The notes under the pieces: generated by a model | What the model saw: the letters and a program-made list of their open reading frames with translations, nothing else | Told to the model about the DNA's origin: nothing | The model's database searches: none | Translations under genes and position numbers: made by a program | Shown here: positions 2,732 to 15,659 of the stretch, piece by piece | Position numbering within the stretch: position 1 is the stretch's first letter | Layout: every line of letters begins with the position of its first letter | NCBI RefSeq assembly: GCF_003987135.1 | Contig: NZ_PIPJ01000003.1 | Location: forward strand, 124,001-188,000 | DNA length: 64,000 nt | DNA from: Aliidiomarina iranensis | Lineage (GTDB): Bacteria > Pseudomonadota > Gammaproteobacteria > Enterobacterales > Alteromonadaceae | Direction: 5' to 3'

Positions 2732-3772
2732 TTGCGAAGCAAAATAACGCTGTTTGTGCTGACGGCCTCGGCGGTTTGTGCGTTGGCTTGGCTAAGTTTG
2801 GAAACATCGTTTTTTCGCTCAGAGCTACCGGCTGATAATCGGCATAACAACACAGATGAAGCGCCCGGTGAATCTTCAGCGGTAGCACAAGCGACAGCCC
2901 GAGTGTTGCCGCGAGTTGTTGCTGCACCAAAAGATTGTGATCTGCATTTGAATTTTCATGGCCAACCAGATGATTTTGTACGTGTAGAATACTGGCAACA
3001 ACGATTAACCGAGCTTTTCGCTGCGGAAAACCTCGCTAGCCTTGATTCTCTAGCAGAACCTTCGCCTCTGCGTTTTTGTGCATCATTGCACTTCGATGTG
3101 TATTCCGATAATTGCCCTGAGCAAGCGGGCCGCGCTTGGTGTCGCCCGTTACCACAGAGCAATAGCTCTGCTAATAAAGACTCGTTAGCACGTTTAATAT
3201 CAGAATCTCGTGCGCCTGCATCGGCTGCAGAATCTGCTCCTTTGCAAACCACTAAAGCCACAGACATTTCAGTAAAACCGCAATTTGATATCGTGCTTGC
3301 TGATACCGGTTTAGCAAACACGCGGAACGGTGTAGTGTTTTTGCAGCGAACAGCCAGTGTGCATGTATTAAAGCATGAATTTGGCCATGCGCTTGGCTTA
3401 GCCGATGAATATCCAATGCATTCAGAGTTAGCGCGCCAGTTTTGCAATGGTGAATTTAACTTCACCGCGAATAATTTGGTGATTACAGATAAAGCTTGGT
3501 TAACACCACAAGAAATGCGGGTATTTCAACAAAGCTTACCCTGGTATGATTTTTTGCAACAACCTCTCGGAGTACAGGAACCTAACGGCATTTGGCGCTT
3601 AGGCTCGCCCGATAGCGGCAAAGTAGGCCTGTTTAAAGCAAGTACTTGTGAGGGCACAGGGCGATATGCTTGGAAGCCAGTAGCTGATACAACATGGATG
3701 GAACAACATCAAATTGGCAACATTCCAGCACTTTATATCCAACTCATACAAAATCAGTTAAACGGGCAATAA
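2732..3772 (+). CDS. Exported zinc metalloprotease-like protein (HExxHxxGxxDEY)
   Basis: Probable secreted or membrane-anchored zinc peptidase of unknown substrate. The key motif is at residues 215-227: His215, Glu216 and His219 form HEFGH, followed by Gly222 and then Asp225-Glu226-Tyr227, the extended HExxHxxGxxDEY pattern also seen in M64-type peptidases. The N-terminus (residues 5-22) is hydrophobic and may be a signal anchor. Several cysteines (70, 116, 128, 137) would suit disulfides outside the cytoplasm. The start is a TTG at 2732 with an AGGAA ribosome site inside the last codons of nlpI; no better in-frame start lies nearby. The six-base gap to nlpI suggests translational coupling and a shared envelope role. 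The family assignment is uncertain; metal binding is well supported. Confidence 0.75.
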   Translation: MRSKITLFVLTASAVCALAWLSLETSFFRSELPADNRHNNTDEAPGESSAVAQATARVLPRVVAAPKDCDLHLNFHGQPDDFVRVEYWQQRLTELFAAENLASLDSLAEPSPLRFCASLHFDVYSDNCPEQAGRAWCRPLPQSNSSANKDSLARLISESRAPASAAESAPLQTTKATDISVKPQFDIVLADTGLANTRNGVVFLQRTASVHVLKHEFGHALGLADEYPMHSELARQFCNGEFNFTANNLVITDKAWLTPQEMRVFQQSLPWYDFLQQPLGVQEPNGIWRLGSPDSGKVGLFKASTCEGTGRYAWKPVADTTWMEQHQIGNIPALYIQLIQNQLNGQ

Positions 3773-3773
3773 A

Positions 3774-3795
3774 AAAGCGCCTCGAGAGGCGCTTT
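3774..3795. terminator. Terminator between convergent genes
   Basis: AAAGCGCCTC / GAGGCGCTTT inverted repeat in the 44-base gap between the metalloprotease gene (+) and the S9 peptidase gene (-). The six adenines on its left form a U run for the minus-strand transcript, so it mainly serves the S9 gene but may act in both directions. Confidence 0.8.
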
Positions 3796-3816
3796 CAGAG
3801 CGAAATACGAGGGTAA

Positions 3817-6246
3817 TTATTCTTCAGCTTCGGTTACATCGGCATTTTTCACAAATTCATCGAGCCATTCAGTGGTTTCCCAGAGCATGTGCAATACAGA
3901 TTCACGCGCCCGATAACCATGTGATTCCAATGGCAACATCACTAAGCGAACAACACCTCCGTTACCCTTAACGGCTTGATACAAGCGTTCGCTTTGCATT
4001 GGGAAGGTGCCCGAGTTGTTATCATCGGTGCCATGAATTAATAGCAGCGGTGTTTTAATTTGATGCGCTGAGAAGAAAGGCGACATGGTTTGATACAACT
4101 GCGGATCATCCCATATGGTTCGTTCTTCCCGTTGGAAACCAAAGGGTGTAAGCGAGCGGTTATAAGCACCGCTACGAGCAATACCGGCTTTAAACAAATC
4201 GGAATGAGCAAGTACATTAGCCGTCATGAAAGCGCCGTAAGAATGCCCGCCAAGCGCAAAGCGCTCTGGGTCGCTAACACCCAGCTCAGTGCCAAATTCA
4301 ATAACGGCTTTGGAATTCATAATAAGCTGTTCAATAAAAGTATCGTTAGGCAGTTGCTCACCTTCGCCTACAATCGGCATCGTTGCATTATCAAATACAG
4401 CATAGCCTTGTGTAGCCAAAAATTGCGGCCGCCAGTAGCTAATGCGATTGAATTCATACGGTGATCCGCTCACTTGGGCAGCAGCACTTGAGCTGCGATA
4501 TTCTCGCGGATAAGCCCAAACAATAGTGGGTAATGGCCCATCAGTTTCTTTATCGTACCCTGCTGGGAGATAAAGTGTAGCTGACATAGGTAAGCCATCC
4601 TCACGCTCATAATTAACCAATTCGCGGGATATCTCCAGAGTTTGTGGCATAGGGTGAGGCGTATTCGTGAGTGCCGTTAACTTCTCATTTTTAATATCAC
4701 GAACATAAAAATCAGGCGGCGTATCAATGCTTTCACGTTGGGTTAAGAAGGTGAGTGCATTTACATCAATGATATTCCGCGGGCGTTCAAAGAAAGGCGC
4801 TTCCGAACGCCATAAGCGCTCAGTATCGCCGGTGCTTAGGTTACGGCGATCAATAAATGGCCGATCGCCTTCATCCGAAGCGCCAGTGCCGGTAAGTAAA
4901 ATATGATCATTCTCCAGAATTAATACTCTGCGCCCATCCGCGAGTTGTTGCGTAAAAGGGCTACCCGGGTCGTTGTAGCGATCTTCGAATGAGCGATCCC
5001 AAACCAATTCAGGTTCGGCATTACCATCAGGGCTTATTCGCCATAAACGTTCATTACGTTCAGCCCACCAACGCTCCCAAACAAGCGCTGTTTCGCCATC
5101 GGCGGCTAAAAGGCGGCTAAAGCGAAAGCTCAAATCGGCGAGTTTTTTCGGCTCTTGGTTGAATGGCGCAGAGAGCTGGAAGAGCTGATCGCGCACTTCT
5201 GCTTCGGCGCGTGGATCGCCGCCATCAGCGGCTTGAGCCCAAATTAGAGTAGCATCCGCATCGTTTCGCCAGCTAATACTGCGGCGCGAGGGAACAACGG
5301 CATCAAAACCAATGGGCAAATTATCGGCAAGTTCTTGTTCCACTACCGTGTAAACGGATTCGCCAGCATGATTCCAAACCGAGGTAGTGCGAGCGAAACG
5401 AAACTGCGGAACCGCATAAGAGTAAGGCTTGTTTAACTGAGTAACTAATAGGAATTGGCTATTCGGCGCTAAACTAACACTGTTTATAACAGCCGGAACA
5501 CCTAAGTTCTGAACGCGGCCACGCTCATTTATGCGAGCAACTTGGCTGCTGAAATAATAATCAAAAAGTGCTTCATCGTGGCTGTCGGCCAATAAATCTT
5601 GATAAGTGCGCGAGGGGGCGGTGCGCCCGCGAGATTCTGTAACCACCGGGCCGGCAGGAACGCGGCTTCGTTGCGGCGCGTTGCCGCGCTTCGTGTCCAC
5701 AACAAGGGTATAAATAGATTTACTATCTTTACTCCACTCAAGTTGCGGGCCCCATACAGCGTTTAAATCGGCTTTTGACCAACGCGTAGCTCGGCCGCGT
5801 TGGGTATCAATACGCCACAAATGAGTAGCTGTTTCTTCCATTTGCGCAAAGGCAATATAGCGATTATCTGGCGACCAAGCCACACCAATCGCACGTAGGT
5901 TGTCAGGTAAACCACGGATTTCAATTTCCTCGCGGTTTGCGGTGCTAACTAAACGAAAGCCGGAGATGTAGCGAGTTTGTGCTCGCGTTTGGTTGTCTGG
6001 GTTAATGCGAACACCAGCTAGACGATGTTCAGAAACGGCTAAATCAGCGAGTACCGGCAGCGCTGGATACTCTAAAACGAGTAAGAGCTCGCCGTCACCG
6101 CTTAAACTAGCGCCGGGGGCAGGAGCGGCATCAACGATATCAACAATTTCTTCAGCAGGTTCGAGATAACCGGTTTGTACCGGATTTGCCATGGCTGTAT
6201 TTGCAAAGAGCAAACACAGAGATAATAAGAGGACCAAGCTACGCAT
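3817..6246 (-). CDS. Exported S9-family serine peptidase (prolyl-oligopeptidase fold)
   Basis: Periplasmic or secreted serine peptidase with an N-terminal beta-propeller-like region and a C-terminal alpha/beta hydrolase domain. Residues 1-20 form a clear signal peptide ending TAMA. The nucleophile elbow reads LGGHSYGAFMTANVLAHSD (Ser in GHSYG), the acid is in LLIHGTDDNNSGTFP and the base in LPLESHGYRARES, so the triad is complete. The sequence around the nucleophile resembles glutamyl endopeptidase/S9D-type enzymes, but substrate preference cannot be read from this. At 809 residues it is full length for the family. The start ATG at 6246 has a GGAG ribosome site six bases upstream, and that site sits inside a long inverted repeat (separate entry), hinting at translational control. 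Confidence 0.9.
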   Translation of the reverse strand: MRSLVLLLSLCLLFANTAMANPVQTGYLEPAEEIVDIVDAAPAPGASLSGDGELLLVLEYPALPVLADLAVSEHRLAGVRINPDNQTRAQTRYISGFRLVSTANREEIEIRGLPDNLRAIGVAWSPDNRYIAFAQMEETATHLWRIDTQRGRATRWSKADLNAVWGPQLEWSKDSKSIYTLVVDTKRGNAPQRSRVPAGPVVTESRGRTAPSRTYQDLLADSHDEALFDYYFSSQVARINERGRVQNLGVPAVINSVSLAPNSQFLLVTQLNKPYSYAVPQFRFARTTSVWNHAGESVYTVVEQELADNLPIGFDAVVPSRRSISWRNDADATLIWAQAADGGDPRAEAEVRDQLFQLSAPFNQEPKKLADLSFRFSRLLAADGETALVWERWWAERNERLWRISPDGNAEPELVWDRSFEDRYNDPGSPFTQQLADGRRVLILENDHILLTGTGASDEGDRPFIDRRNLSTGDTERLWRSEAPFFERPRNIIDVNALTFLTQRESIDTPPDFYVRDIKNEKLTALTNTPHPMPQTLEISRELVNYEREDGLPMSATLYLPAGYDKETDGPLPTIVWAYPREYRSSSAAAQVSGSPYEFNRISYWRPQFLATQGYAVFDNATMPIVGEGEQLPNDTFIEQLIMNSKAVIEFGTELGVSDPERFALGGHSYGAFMTANVLAHSDLFKAGIARSGAYNRSLTPFGFQREERTIWDDPQLYQTMSPFFSAHQIKTPLLLIHGTDDNNSGTFPMQSERLYQAVKGNGGVVRLVMLPLESHGYRARESVLHMLWETTEWLDEFVKNADVTEAEE

Positions 6247-6248
6247 AG

Positions 6249-6321
6249 ATTTCTCCAGATTTATAATTAGCTGCGATAGTTACCCATCACACCCTGTTTT
6301 ACATTATAAATCTAGAGAAAT
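6249..6321 (-). promoter_or_regulatory. Inverted repeat sequestering the Shine-Dalgarno of the S9 peptidase gene
   Basis: Arms at 6303-6321 and 6249-6267 with a 35-base spacer. In the minus-strand RNA the 19 positions all pair, with a single U-G wobble. The downstream arm contains the GGAG ribosome site, and the ATG is only two bases beyond the stem. The stem is AU-rich and is not followed by a U run, so it does not look like a terminator for the upstream lipA gene. It could be a translational on/off switch. The alternative is a DNA-level operator, since the upstream arm also contains TATAAT on the minus strand. Confidence 0.7.
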
Positions 6322-6354
6322 GCGATTAAGTGCGAACAATCAACGATTGCACGC

Positions 6355-7338
6355 TTACTTTACTTCAATACCAGCGGCTTGTAGATCAGCGTGATACGAC
6401 GAGCGCACTAGTGGGCCAGAGGCTGCTTGTGTAAAGCCCATACGATCAGCTTCACGTTTGAACATTGCAAACTCATCCGGTGTTACATAGCGTGCTACCG
6501 GGATATGATGCCGGCTTGGCTGCAAGTATTGGCCAATGGTTAACATATCCACGTTATGGCGGCGAAGATCTTCCATAACTTCGAGAATTTCTTCATTGGT
6601 TTCACCTAAACCAACCATTAATCCAGATTTGGTTCGCACATCTGGACGACGCTCTTTATATAGCTTAAGCAAATCTAAAGACCACTGATAGTTTGCTCCA
6701 GGGCGTGCGGCTTTATACATACGTGGCACGGTTTCTAGGTTGTGGTTAAATACATCGGGAGCTTCGGCACTGAGAATATCGAGAGCTATATTCATGCGAC
6801 CGCGAAAATCAGGTACTAACACTTCAACTTTGATATCCGGAGTGTAGGCCCGTATTTCACGAATACAATCAGCAAAATGTTGAGCGCCACCATCGCGCAG
6901 ATCATCACGGTCAACTGAGGTAACAACTACGTAATTCACACCCATATCACGAATGGTAACGCCAAGTTTTTCAGCTTCTTTTGGGTCCGGAGGCAGAGGC
7001 CGGCCGTGAGCTACATCACAAAATGGGCAACGGCGCGTGCAAATATCACCAAGAATCATGAAGGTGGCTGTGCCATGATTAAAGCATTCTGGCAGATTCG
7101 GGCAGGAGGCCTCTTCGCAAACAGAATGTAGGCCATGCTTGCGCATGGCTTGTTTGATTTTATCGATTTTATCGGTTGTGCGCGGCAACTTCACTTTCAA
7201 CCACTCGGGTTTACGCAACATTTGCTCGCGCTCAGTGGGTAACACCTTCACAGGAATAAGCGACATTTTATCGGCATCGCGTAATTTTTCACCGGCTTCT
7301 AGTTTCGCCGTTTTGATTGACGTTGCTTGTTTAGACAT
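6355..7338 (-). CDS. lipA: Lipoyl synthase
   Basis: Radical SAM enzyme that inserts two sulfurs into protein-bound octanoyl groups to make lipoyl cofactors of PDH, OGDH and the glycine cleavage system. The N-terminal auxiliary cluster motif [12 protein letters not shown] and the radical SAM motif [10 protein letters not shown] are both intact, and the family end signature VRSSYHA is present. I chose the ATG at 7338 (327 residues, [10 protein letters not shown]), which matches the family length; the frame stays open upstream to 7446, but that stretch is lipB in another frame. The start overlaps the lipB stop by eight bases, so the two genes are translationally coupled. Confidence 0.96.
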
Positions 7339-7984
7339 AAGGTTCAGGCAGCCCCGTTTGTTCTTCAATCTGAATGTAACTAAGTTGCTCTGCGAATATT
7401 TGCACAACACGCTCAGCTGCTTGTTTAACAGTATCTGGCCCACCATGGGCCGAAGTTTGTGTCATTACCATGCCGGCATAGCCGCATGGATTAATTCTTA
7501 AAAAAGGCGATAAATCCATGTTCACATTAAGTGCTAAGCCGTGAAACGAACAGCCCTTGCGTATTCTTAGGCCTAAAGAACACACTTTCTCTTCACCAAT
7601 GTAAACACCTGGCGCATCGGGGCGTGGCGCGGCTTTGATGCCACGTTCAGCTAACAGCGCCACTATTGTATCTTCTATGGCAGTTACTAATTGCCGGACA
7701 CCGAGCTTGCGGCGGCGGATATCTAGTAGGAAATACACTACTAATTGGCCAGGCCCGTGGTAAGTAACTTGCCCGCCACGATCAACAGGCACCACGGGTA
7801 TATCTCCGGGTGCCAATAGATGCTCTGCTTTACCCGCTTGCCCTTGGGTGAATACCGGCGGATGCTCAACTACCCAGAGTTCATCATCTGTGCTTTCATC
7901 ACGATTATCGGTAAAGTTCTGCATCGCTTTCCAAACCGGCTCATAGGCCATGTTCTGGAGCTGGCGGATGATTAACTTTCGCAT
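7331..7984 (-). CDS. lipB: Octanoyltransferase LipB
   Basis: Transfers the octanoyl group from acyl carrier protein to lipoyl domains, the step before LipA. The conserved block [15 protein letters not shown] and the catalytic region around INPCGYAGM (the acyl-enzyme Cys) with the upstream conserved Lys in [14 protein letters not shown] are seen. It has 217 residues, the normal size. The ATG at 7984 has a GGAG twelve bases upstream, a rather long spacing. A TATAAT lies six bases before the start, without a recognisable -35 box. It is followed by lipA with an eight-base overlap. Confidence 0.96.
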
Positions 7985-15261: not shown

Positions 15262-15270
15262 ACTGGTTGT

Positions 15271-15588
15271 TTAACCCCAGAGCTTTTCGAGCTGATAGAA
15301 ATCTCGAGTACTATCTTGCATTACGTGCGCAACAACAGGACCAAAATCAACTAAAACCCACTCGCCGTCGTCTTCGCCTTCCATACCCAAGGCAACTTCG
15401 CCAGCATGTTTAGCTTCAAGCGCCACATGTTTGGCAATACTGCGAACGTGGGTTTTAGAGTTGCCAGAACAAATCACTAAGAAATCGGTTACATCTGTTT
15501 TGTCTCGGATATCAAGAACTTGAATATCACGGCCTTTAAGGTCTTCAATTTTGCTGAGAATAAAATCTCGTAATTGTTCGGTTTGCAA
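15271..15588 (-). CDS. rsfS: Ribosomal silencing factor RsfS
   Basis: Binds ribosomal protein L14 and blocks subunit joining when nutrients are low. The sequence follows E. coli RsfS throughout (DIRDKTDVTDFLVICSGNS, VDFGPVVAHVMQ, YQLEKLW). I chose the TTG at 15588: it has an AGGAG ten bases upstream and gives exactly the 105 residues of E. coli RsfS. A GTG at 15633 would add 15 residues not found in the family. It is co-transcribed with nadD upstream and rlmH downstream. Confidence 0.92.
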   Translation of the reverse strand: MQTEQLRDFILSKIEDLKGRDIQVLDIRDKTDVTDFLVICSGNSKTHVRSIAKHVALEAKHAGEVALGMEGEDDGEWVLVDFGPVVAHVMQDSTRDFYQLEKLWG

Positions 15589-15659
15589 CGCTCGGTTACT
15601 CCTATAAATGTTGTTAACCGCAGAGTGTACCACGAGTACAGCCCTTGATGCAGCTATCG

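Follow-up and report, generated by a model that had tools for sequence, protein, structure and literature searches.

Bacterial genes are closely packed and terminators leak. The transposase gene of IS10/Tn10 is shielded from outside transcription, its ribosome site being buried in read-through RNA. Other controls of insertion sequences are described in PMC8450116. In phage T4, two reports describe genes e, soc, 49 and I-TevI as having a ribosome site that is buried in long upstream transcripts (PMC3014915, PMC2988022). For gene e, the structure is reported to reduce synthesis 100-fold, and its 5' portion is missing from the late transcripts (PMC3014915). The other report gives the same arrangement for I-TevI and related T4 genes (PMC2988022). 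Here, we analyse the leader of a chromosomal peptidase gene whose ribosome site lies in one arm of a long stem. We found no report of this leader in the literature, in searches that were narrow and in which absence is not proof.

The stem and the ribosome site of the peptidase gene

Coordinates are positions in the window, i.e. the whole stretch of 64,000 nt that was analysed. G000 designates the genome of the studied locus, and G002–G016 its congeners. The gene (3817..6246, minus strand) encodes an S9-type peptidase of the prolyl oligopeptidase family (809 aa). We read its N-terminus as a signal peptide, which suggests that the peptidase is exported. The gene is present in all 17 genomes of the genus that were compared, and the proteins of the 16 others are 64–87% identical to that of G000. 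Upstream, on the same strand, lies lipA (lipoyl synthase, 6355..7446), whose stop codon is separated from the peptidase ATG (6246) by 108 nt. No intrinsic terminator was found between the two genes in G000 or in its closest relative, G004. After the peptidase gene there is a strong terminator-like hairpin (3771–3796 of the window, minus strand, GAAAGCGCCTCTCGAGGCGCTTTTTT).

We searched positions 5900–6700 of the window for inverted repeats of at least 12 nt and retrieved one, which matches 6249–6267 with 6303–6321 over 19 nt (95% complementary). As RNA, its arms pair over the full 19 nt with 18 Watson-Crick pairs and one U-G, in agreement with the pairing described in the original prediction. 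The 5' arm (6303..6321, minus strand) lies within a block that is conserved in the genus and has TATAAT at 6308–6303. The 3' arm (6249..6267, minus strand) contains the GGAG of the ribosome site (6256–6253), and the ATG comes two bases (CT) further on; this placement, which had also been proposed, can be read directly in the sequence. Between the arms is a 35 nt loop (6268..6302, minus strand), where the fold predicts a smaller inner hairpin (about 6294–6269). The start codon is also paired in the predicted fold, where CGCAU (6324–6320) faces the AUGCG of the gene start (6242–6246). It is buried too because the conserved CGCAT of the block (6320–6324) is complementary to ATGCG in G000 and in G004.

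The fold of positions 6330–6230 has a predicted energy of −35.3 kcal/mol. Shuffled sequences average −17.8 kcal/mol (s.d. 2.9), which gives a z-score of −6.0, and none of 200 shuffles was as good. When the upstream part alone was shuffled and the ribosome-site end was kept fixed, the GGAG was as deeply buried in none of 500 sequences. We then ranked 266 leaders of G000, taken from 464 kb (the window plus 400 kb), each with a Shine-Dalgarno match of four letters or more and an open reading frame of 120 aa or more. The predicted cost of freeing the GGAG of the peptidase gene, about 12.7 kcal/mol, is the highest among them (the next is 8.9), and so is its stem score of 19 (the next is 14). These results uphold the original claim that the repeat is unlikely to occur here by chance.

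The stem repeat is single-copy, with one match in the genome, which rules out a repeat element, a MITE or another mobile element. A search of positions 5800–6800 against Rfam 15 gave no family at gathering score and two matches, both far below it; a known Rfam regulatory RNA (riboswitch or thermometer model) is ruled out in this way. No U-tract directly follows the stem in G000, where the sequence is CTATGCG instead, and the structure does not qualify as an intrinsic terminator.

The conserved block, candidate promoters and the 5' end of the RNA

The block that contains the whole 5' arm is 41 nt long (6285..6325, minus strand) and reads TCKCAT-N4-CTRG-N20-TKTGATR. It is found ungapped, with fixed spacing and at least 14 of its 17 marked positions, in 13 of the 17 congeners. 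The distance from its first base to the ATG is 67–82 nt in 12 of these 13 species and 124 nt in G002. The score of 11 out of 17 obtained in G005, G009, G010 and G011 corresponds to background. As a control, the other leaders of G000 among the 266 scored at most 13, whereas the G005 sample included one that scored 14; the block scores are partly circular, because the peptidase leaders being scored also served to define the block. The genes upstream of the block differ between species: lipA in some, and in others genes that we read as greB-like, slyD-like or beta-lactamase-like. Hence, the block travels with the peptidase gene and not with the neighbour. A block of this kind is probably the gene's own promoter, or a region where an activator acts on it.

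We found no regulon associated with the block. The pattern CTGG-N18-21-CASGBTKTGATR has no match in the genome and also misses the site of the peptidase gene, which reads CTAG. The block pattern with at most two mismatches has three matches, the peptidase site with none and two others with two mismatches each, and the reversed control has one. The genome holds no second full match to the block. Comparisons made by eye with sigma-54 or other named sigma sites, and of TKTGATR with CRP-like or other regulator sites, were not convincing.

Two candidate promoters could serve the peptidase gene. With the conserved block as promoter, transcription would start a few bases past TKTGATR, near 6280; by eye, the block is a poor match to sigma-70. 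With the TATAAT of the 5' arm (6308–6303), it would start near 6296. This TATAAT had originally been cited in favour of an operator at DNA level; it has no recognisable −35 partner and reads TATAAG in the nearest relative, G004. The search by consensus listed no minus-strand promoter in positions 5900–6700. Both candidates would start transcription within the loop (6268–6302), and an mRNA from the gene's own promoter would therefore lack the 5' arm. In our reading, a transcript start inside this interval is the likeliest case.

The position of the 5' end has a strong effect on the predicted burial. In long transcripts the Shine-Dalgarno is predicted to be held in a stable helix that would cost 12.3–12.7 kcal/mol to open, a value obtained for all nine starts tried from 6700 to 6321. 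The cost is 5.4 kcal/mol for a start at 6315, and 1.3–3.9 kcal/mol for all 10 starts tried from 6310 to 6270. Since burial depends so sharply on the 5' end, what matters is whether the 5' arm is part of the mRNA. If transcription starts inside the loop, the stem would have no regulatory effect on the mRNA from the gene's own promoter, and would make sense instead as an element acting in read-through RNA.

Burial and upstream neighbours across the genus

We extended the comparison to 17 genomes of the genus, one per species and G000 included. The ribosome site of the peptidase gene is buried in six species (G000, G004, G005, G012, G015 and G016), with predicted costs of 9.0–14.9 kcal/mol to open it, and costs 0.9–5.8 kcal/mol to open in the remaining 11. 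In each of the six burying species, at most one of 500 shuffles was as deep as the real leader. The opening cost ranks first in G000, G004, G015 and G016 (among 266, 71, 70 and 45 leaders, respectively). The stem length ranks first only in G000 and G004, being sixth of 70 in G015 and third of 45 in G016. The value for G005 is 9.0 kcal/mol with the site model, which matched three letters only, and 12.2 kcal/mol with AGGG; this leader is outside the ranked set of 62 G005 leaders, where the highest cost is 9.5 kcal/mol. Another leader of G005 has a long stem over its ribosome site (L144, gene at about 15263–15652, minus strand), with 17 pairs, one mismatch and a cost of 9.5 kcal/mol.

The stems fall into three registers, with 5' arms that start from column 6 of the block in G000 and G004, column 19 in G012, G015 and G016, and column 23 in G005. 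In the comparison of leaders from related genomes that had originally been proposed, G004 keeps 17 of the 19 pairs, G002 keeps none and has an opening cost of 2.6 kcal/mol, and four other species have different stems with the same effect. G012, G015 and G016 share an AAGCTCC-type stem; the U-tract behind it extends into the ATG, so that by its form this stem is a terminator as well. Their stems show one compensatory pair (A-U to G-C), which is not significant (172 of 500 shuffles). G005 has a AACGGTTTCCCT-type stem, without U-tract and beside another neighbour. In G012, G015 and G016 (L008:1409–1456 and L009:1418–1466), the 3' arm of the U-tract hairpin holds the GGAG of the next gene, which combines terminator and burial in one element. 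The leader of G002 has a strong U-tract hairpin (L004:1402–1450) that begins within the block and leaves the ribosome site uncovered; it could end the lipA RNA or attenuate the peptidase mRNA.

On the peptidase tree, the burial trait needs three changes, which are forced by well-supported branches, and 11 of 500 label shuffles gave a number as low. Separate origins are favoured because the arms pair different columns, although a single gain followed by two losses would also give three changes. In the comparison of G000 with G004, substitutions are found at 3 of 38 arm sites and at 11 of 35 loop sites (p = 0.016). The flank between lipA and the stem differs at 3 of 33 sites and is as well kept as the arms, so that arm conservation gives weak support for a constraint on pairing. 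In the wider family, the highest opening cost was 7.9 kcal/mol among the 31 scorable loci of the best 80 out of at least 572; the 49 others were dropped for want of a usable start or Shine-Dalgarno, and two of the 31 (L034 and L037) seem to duplicate the records of G002 and G013.

The genes upstream of the peptidase gene vary within the genus. The neighbour is lipA in seven species. From our reading of the translations, it is slyD-like in G007, G009 (of which G010 is a near twin) and G011, greB-like in G003, G013 and G014 (divergent in the first of these), beta-lactamase-like in G008, and another gene in G005 and in G006. These differences indicate that the surroundings of the peptidase gene have been rearranged. 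The upstream regions of L005, L006, L010–L016 and L018 illustrate how neighbours vary within one genus, with most species keeping the leader block.

Nine species have a same-strand neighbour that lacks a separate terminator, and six of them show burial; none of the other eight does, in which the neighbour is divergent or a separate terminator is present (Fisher exact test, p = 0.009, with classes that we set after the stems had been seen and statistics that ignore kinship). The stems of G012, G015 and G016 were not counted as separate terminators, nor was a weak hairpin in G013, and G003 was classed as divergent. G006 was classed by eye as having its own terminator (AAAGAGGCC-TTCG-GGCCTCTTT), though the terminator listing has none for this genome. 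If G006 is moved, the counts become 6/10 versus 0/7 (p = 0.035); if G013 is moved, the p-value is 0.002. There are three exceptions, G008, G013 and G014, which have a close same-strand neighbour and no clear separate terminator, yet show no burial.

Possible roles of the stem

The best explanation in our view, to which we give about an even chance, is that the stem is a translational insulator against lipA read-through and keeps the peptidase from accidental synthesis. The mechanism that we infer, with its transcript starts, read-through and repression, builds on computed features: the stem, its predicted burial of the ribosome site, the way in which this burial varies with the 5' end, the conserved block and the lack of a terminator found after lipA. 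RNA reading through from lipA would carry both arms, the 19 bp stem would form, the GGAG would be buried and the peptidase would remain untranslated. This untranslated RNA may then be open to Rho or RNase. Transcription of the gene's own mRNA, driven by the conserved block or by the TATAAT of the arm, would begin within the loop; this mRNA would be devoid of the 5' arm and its ribosome site would be open. Since that mRNA would lack the 5' arm, the stem would form only in upstream-derived RNA. The comparative support for the insulator is weakened by the stem-length ranks and by the variant in which G006 is reclassified. The absence of burial in G008, G013 and G014, and the low opening costs in the wider family, also speak against it.

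Several other explanations must be weighed against it. The strongest rival, which we regard as unlikely, is that the hairpin is the 3' end of lipA, as a terminator or an RNA-protecting structure, and overlaps the next ribosome site by chance of the short gap. The presence of a U-tract after the hairpin at this place in G002, G012, G015 and G016, and the failure to find another lipA terminator in G000, are in its favour. However, there is no U-tract in G000, G004 and G005, and the hairpin of G002 does not cover the ribosome site. Termination alone could explain G012, G015 and G016, because a U-tract follows their stem; these stems may also be terminator and insulator at once. Untranslated read-through RNA is a target for Rho, which makes the two functions compatible. 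The very strong predicted burial would also be expected of a riboregulator, i.e. a stem within the main peptidase mRNA that is opened by a small RNA, a protein or a ligand. This is improbable, given that either candidate promoter would place the transcript start within the loop, that the sequence and place of the arms vary between species, and that no Rfam family matched at gathering score. An RNA thermometer, as originally suggested, would account for an A+U-rich stem that covers the ribosome site. It has next to no chance of being correct, since the predicted cost of opening the GGAG falls smoothly, from 12.6 kcal/mol at 37 °C to 10.4 at 50 °C, 8.6 at 60 °C and 6.5 at 70 °C, and stays well above zero in the growth range.

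The repeat could also act, or have arisen, at the DNA level. The original prediction considered an operator, in which two inverted regulator sites flank a promoter, and the 5' arm does overlap the conserved promoter-like block. However, the 3' arm is kept in G000 and G004 only, of 17 leaders, the other stem-bearing species have different arms, and among 57 relatives the leader DNA matches G004 and, weakly, G002 only. We consider an operator made of this repeat very improbable. Template switching makes near-perfect inverted repeats, and this one is near-perfect. The stem might then be a neutral by-product, without any role, of a replication template switch that laid down an inverted copy of the promoter region across the ribosome site. 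Such an origin may hold for G000 taken alone, but is quite improbable as the full account: 17 of the 19 pairs are kept in G004 while the loop diverged, and the recurrence, with different stems of the same effect in two other lineages, is left unexplained.

If the stem is indeed an insulator, a wider and more tentative reading is possible. On three or more occasions, and each time out of different sequence, one chromosomal gene may have built a stem that buries its ribosome site, in species where it has a same-strand neighbour without a separate terminator. Each stem would straddle the gene's own transcription start and so restrict translation to the mRNA that begins there; the stem of one clade would also be the neighbour's terminator. 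If this reading is true, translational insulation is a selected and evolvable property of ordinary chromosomes, beyond phages and transposons. It is important to highlight that, if such stems silence read-through RNA, RNA-seq coverage over a gene would not mean protein. The layout, with a promoter between the arms, could be sought genome-wide, and a natural test set is provided by this genus, where a single gene has stems of several kinds.

Comparison with known systems

The locus resembles several known arrangements in part. The stems of G012, G015 and G016 have both features of an intrinsic terminator that overlaps the ribosome site of the next gene, whereas the stem of G000 lacks the U-tract. 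As in IS10/Tn10, the gene would guard itself against the promoters of its neighbours; in contrast to IS10/Tn10, the peptidase stem is single-copy and shows no sign of a mobile element. The likeness to T4 lies in the Shine-Dalgarno, which is in the 3' arm, and in the candidate promoter that overlaps the 5' arm, such that proximal transcripts would lack this arm. Unlike in T4, the setting is a bacterial chromosome and an exported peptidase, with no phage timing; we claim no sequence kinship, and we infer both the transcript starts and the repression. An insulator of the kind known from T4 and IS10 is probably present here in a bacterial chromosome, where it has apparently evolved more than once within one genus.
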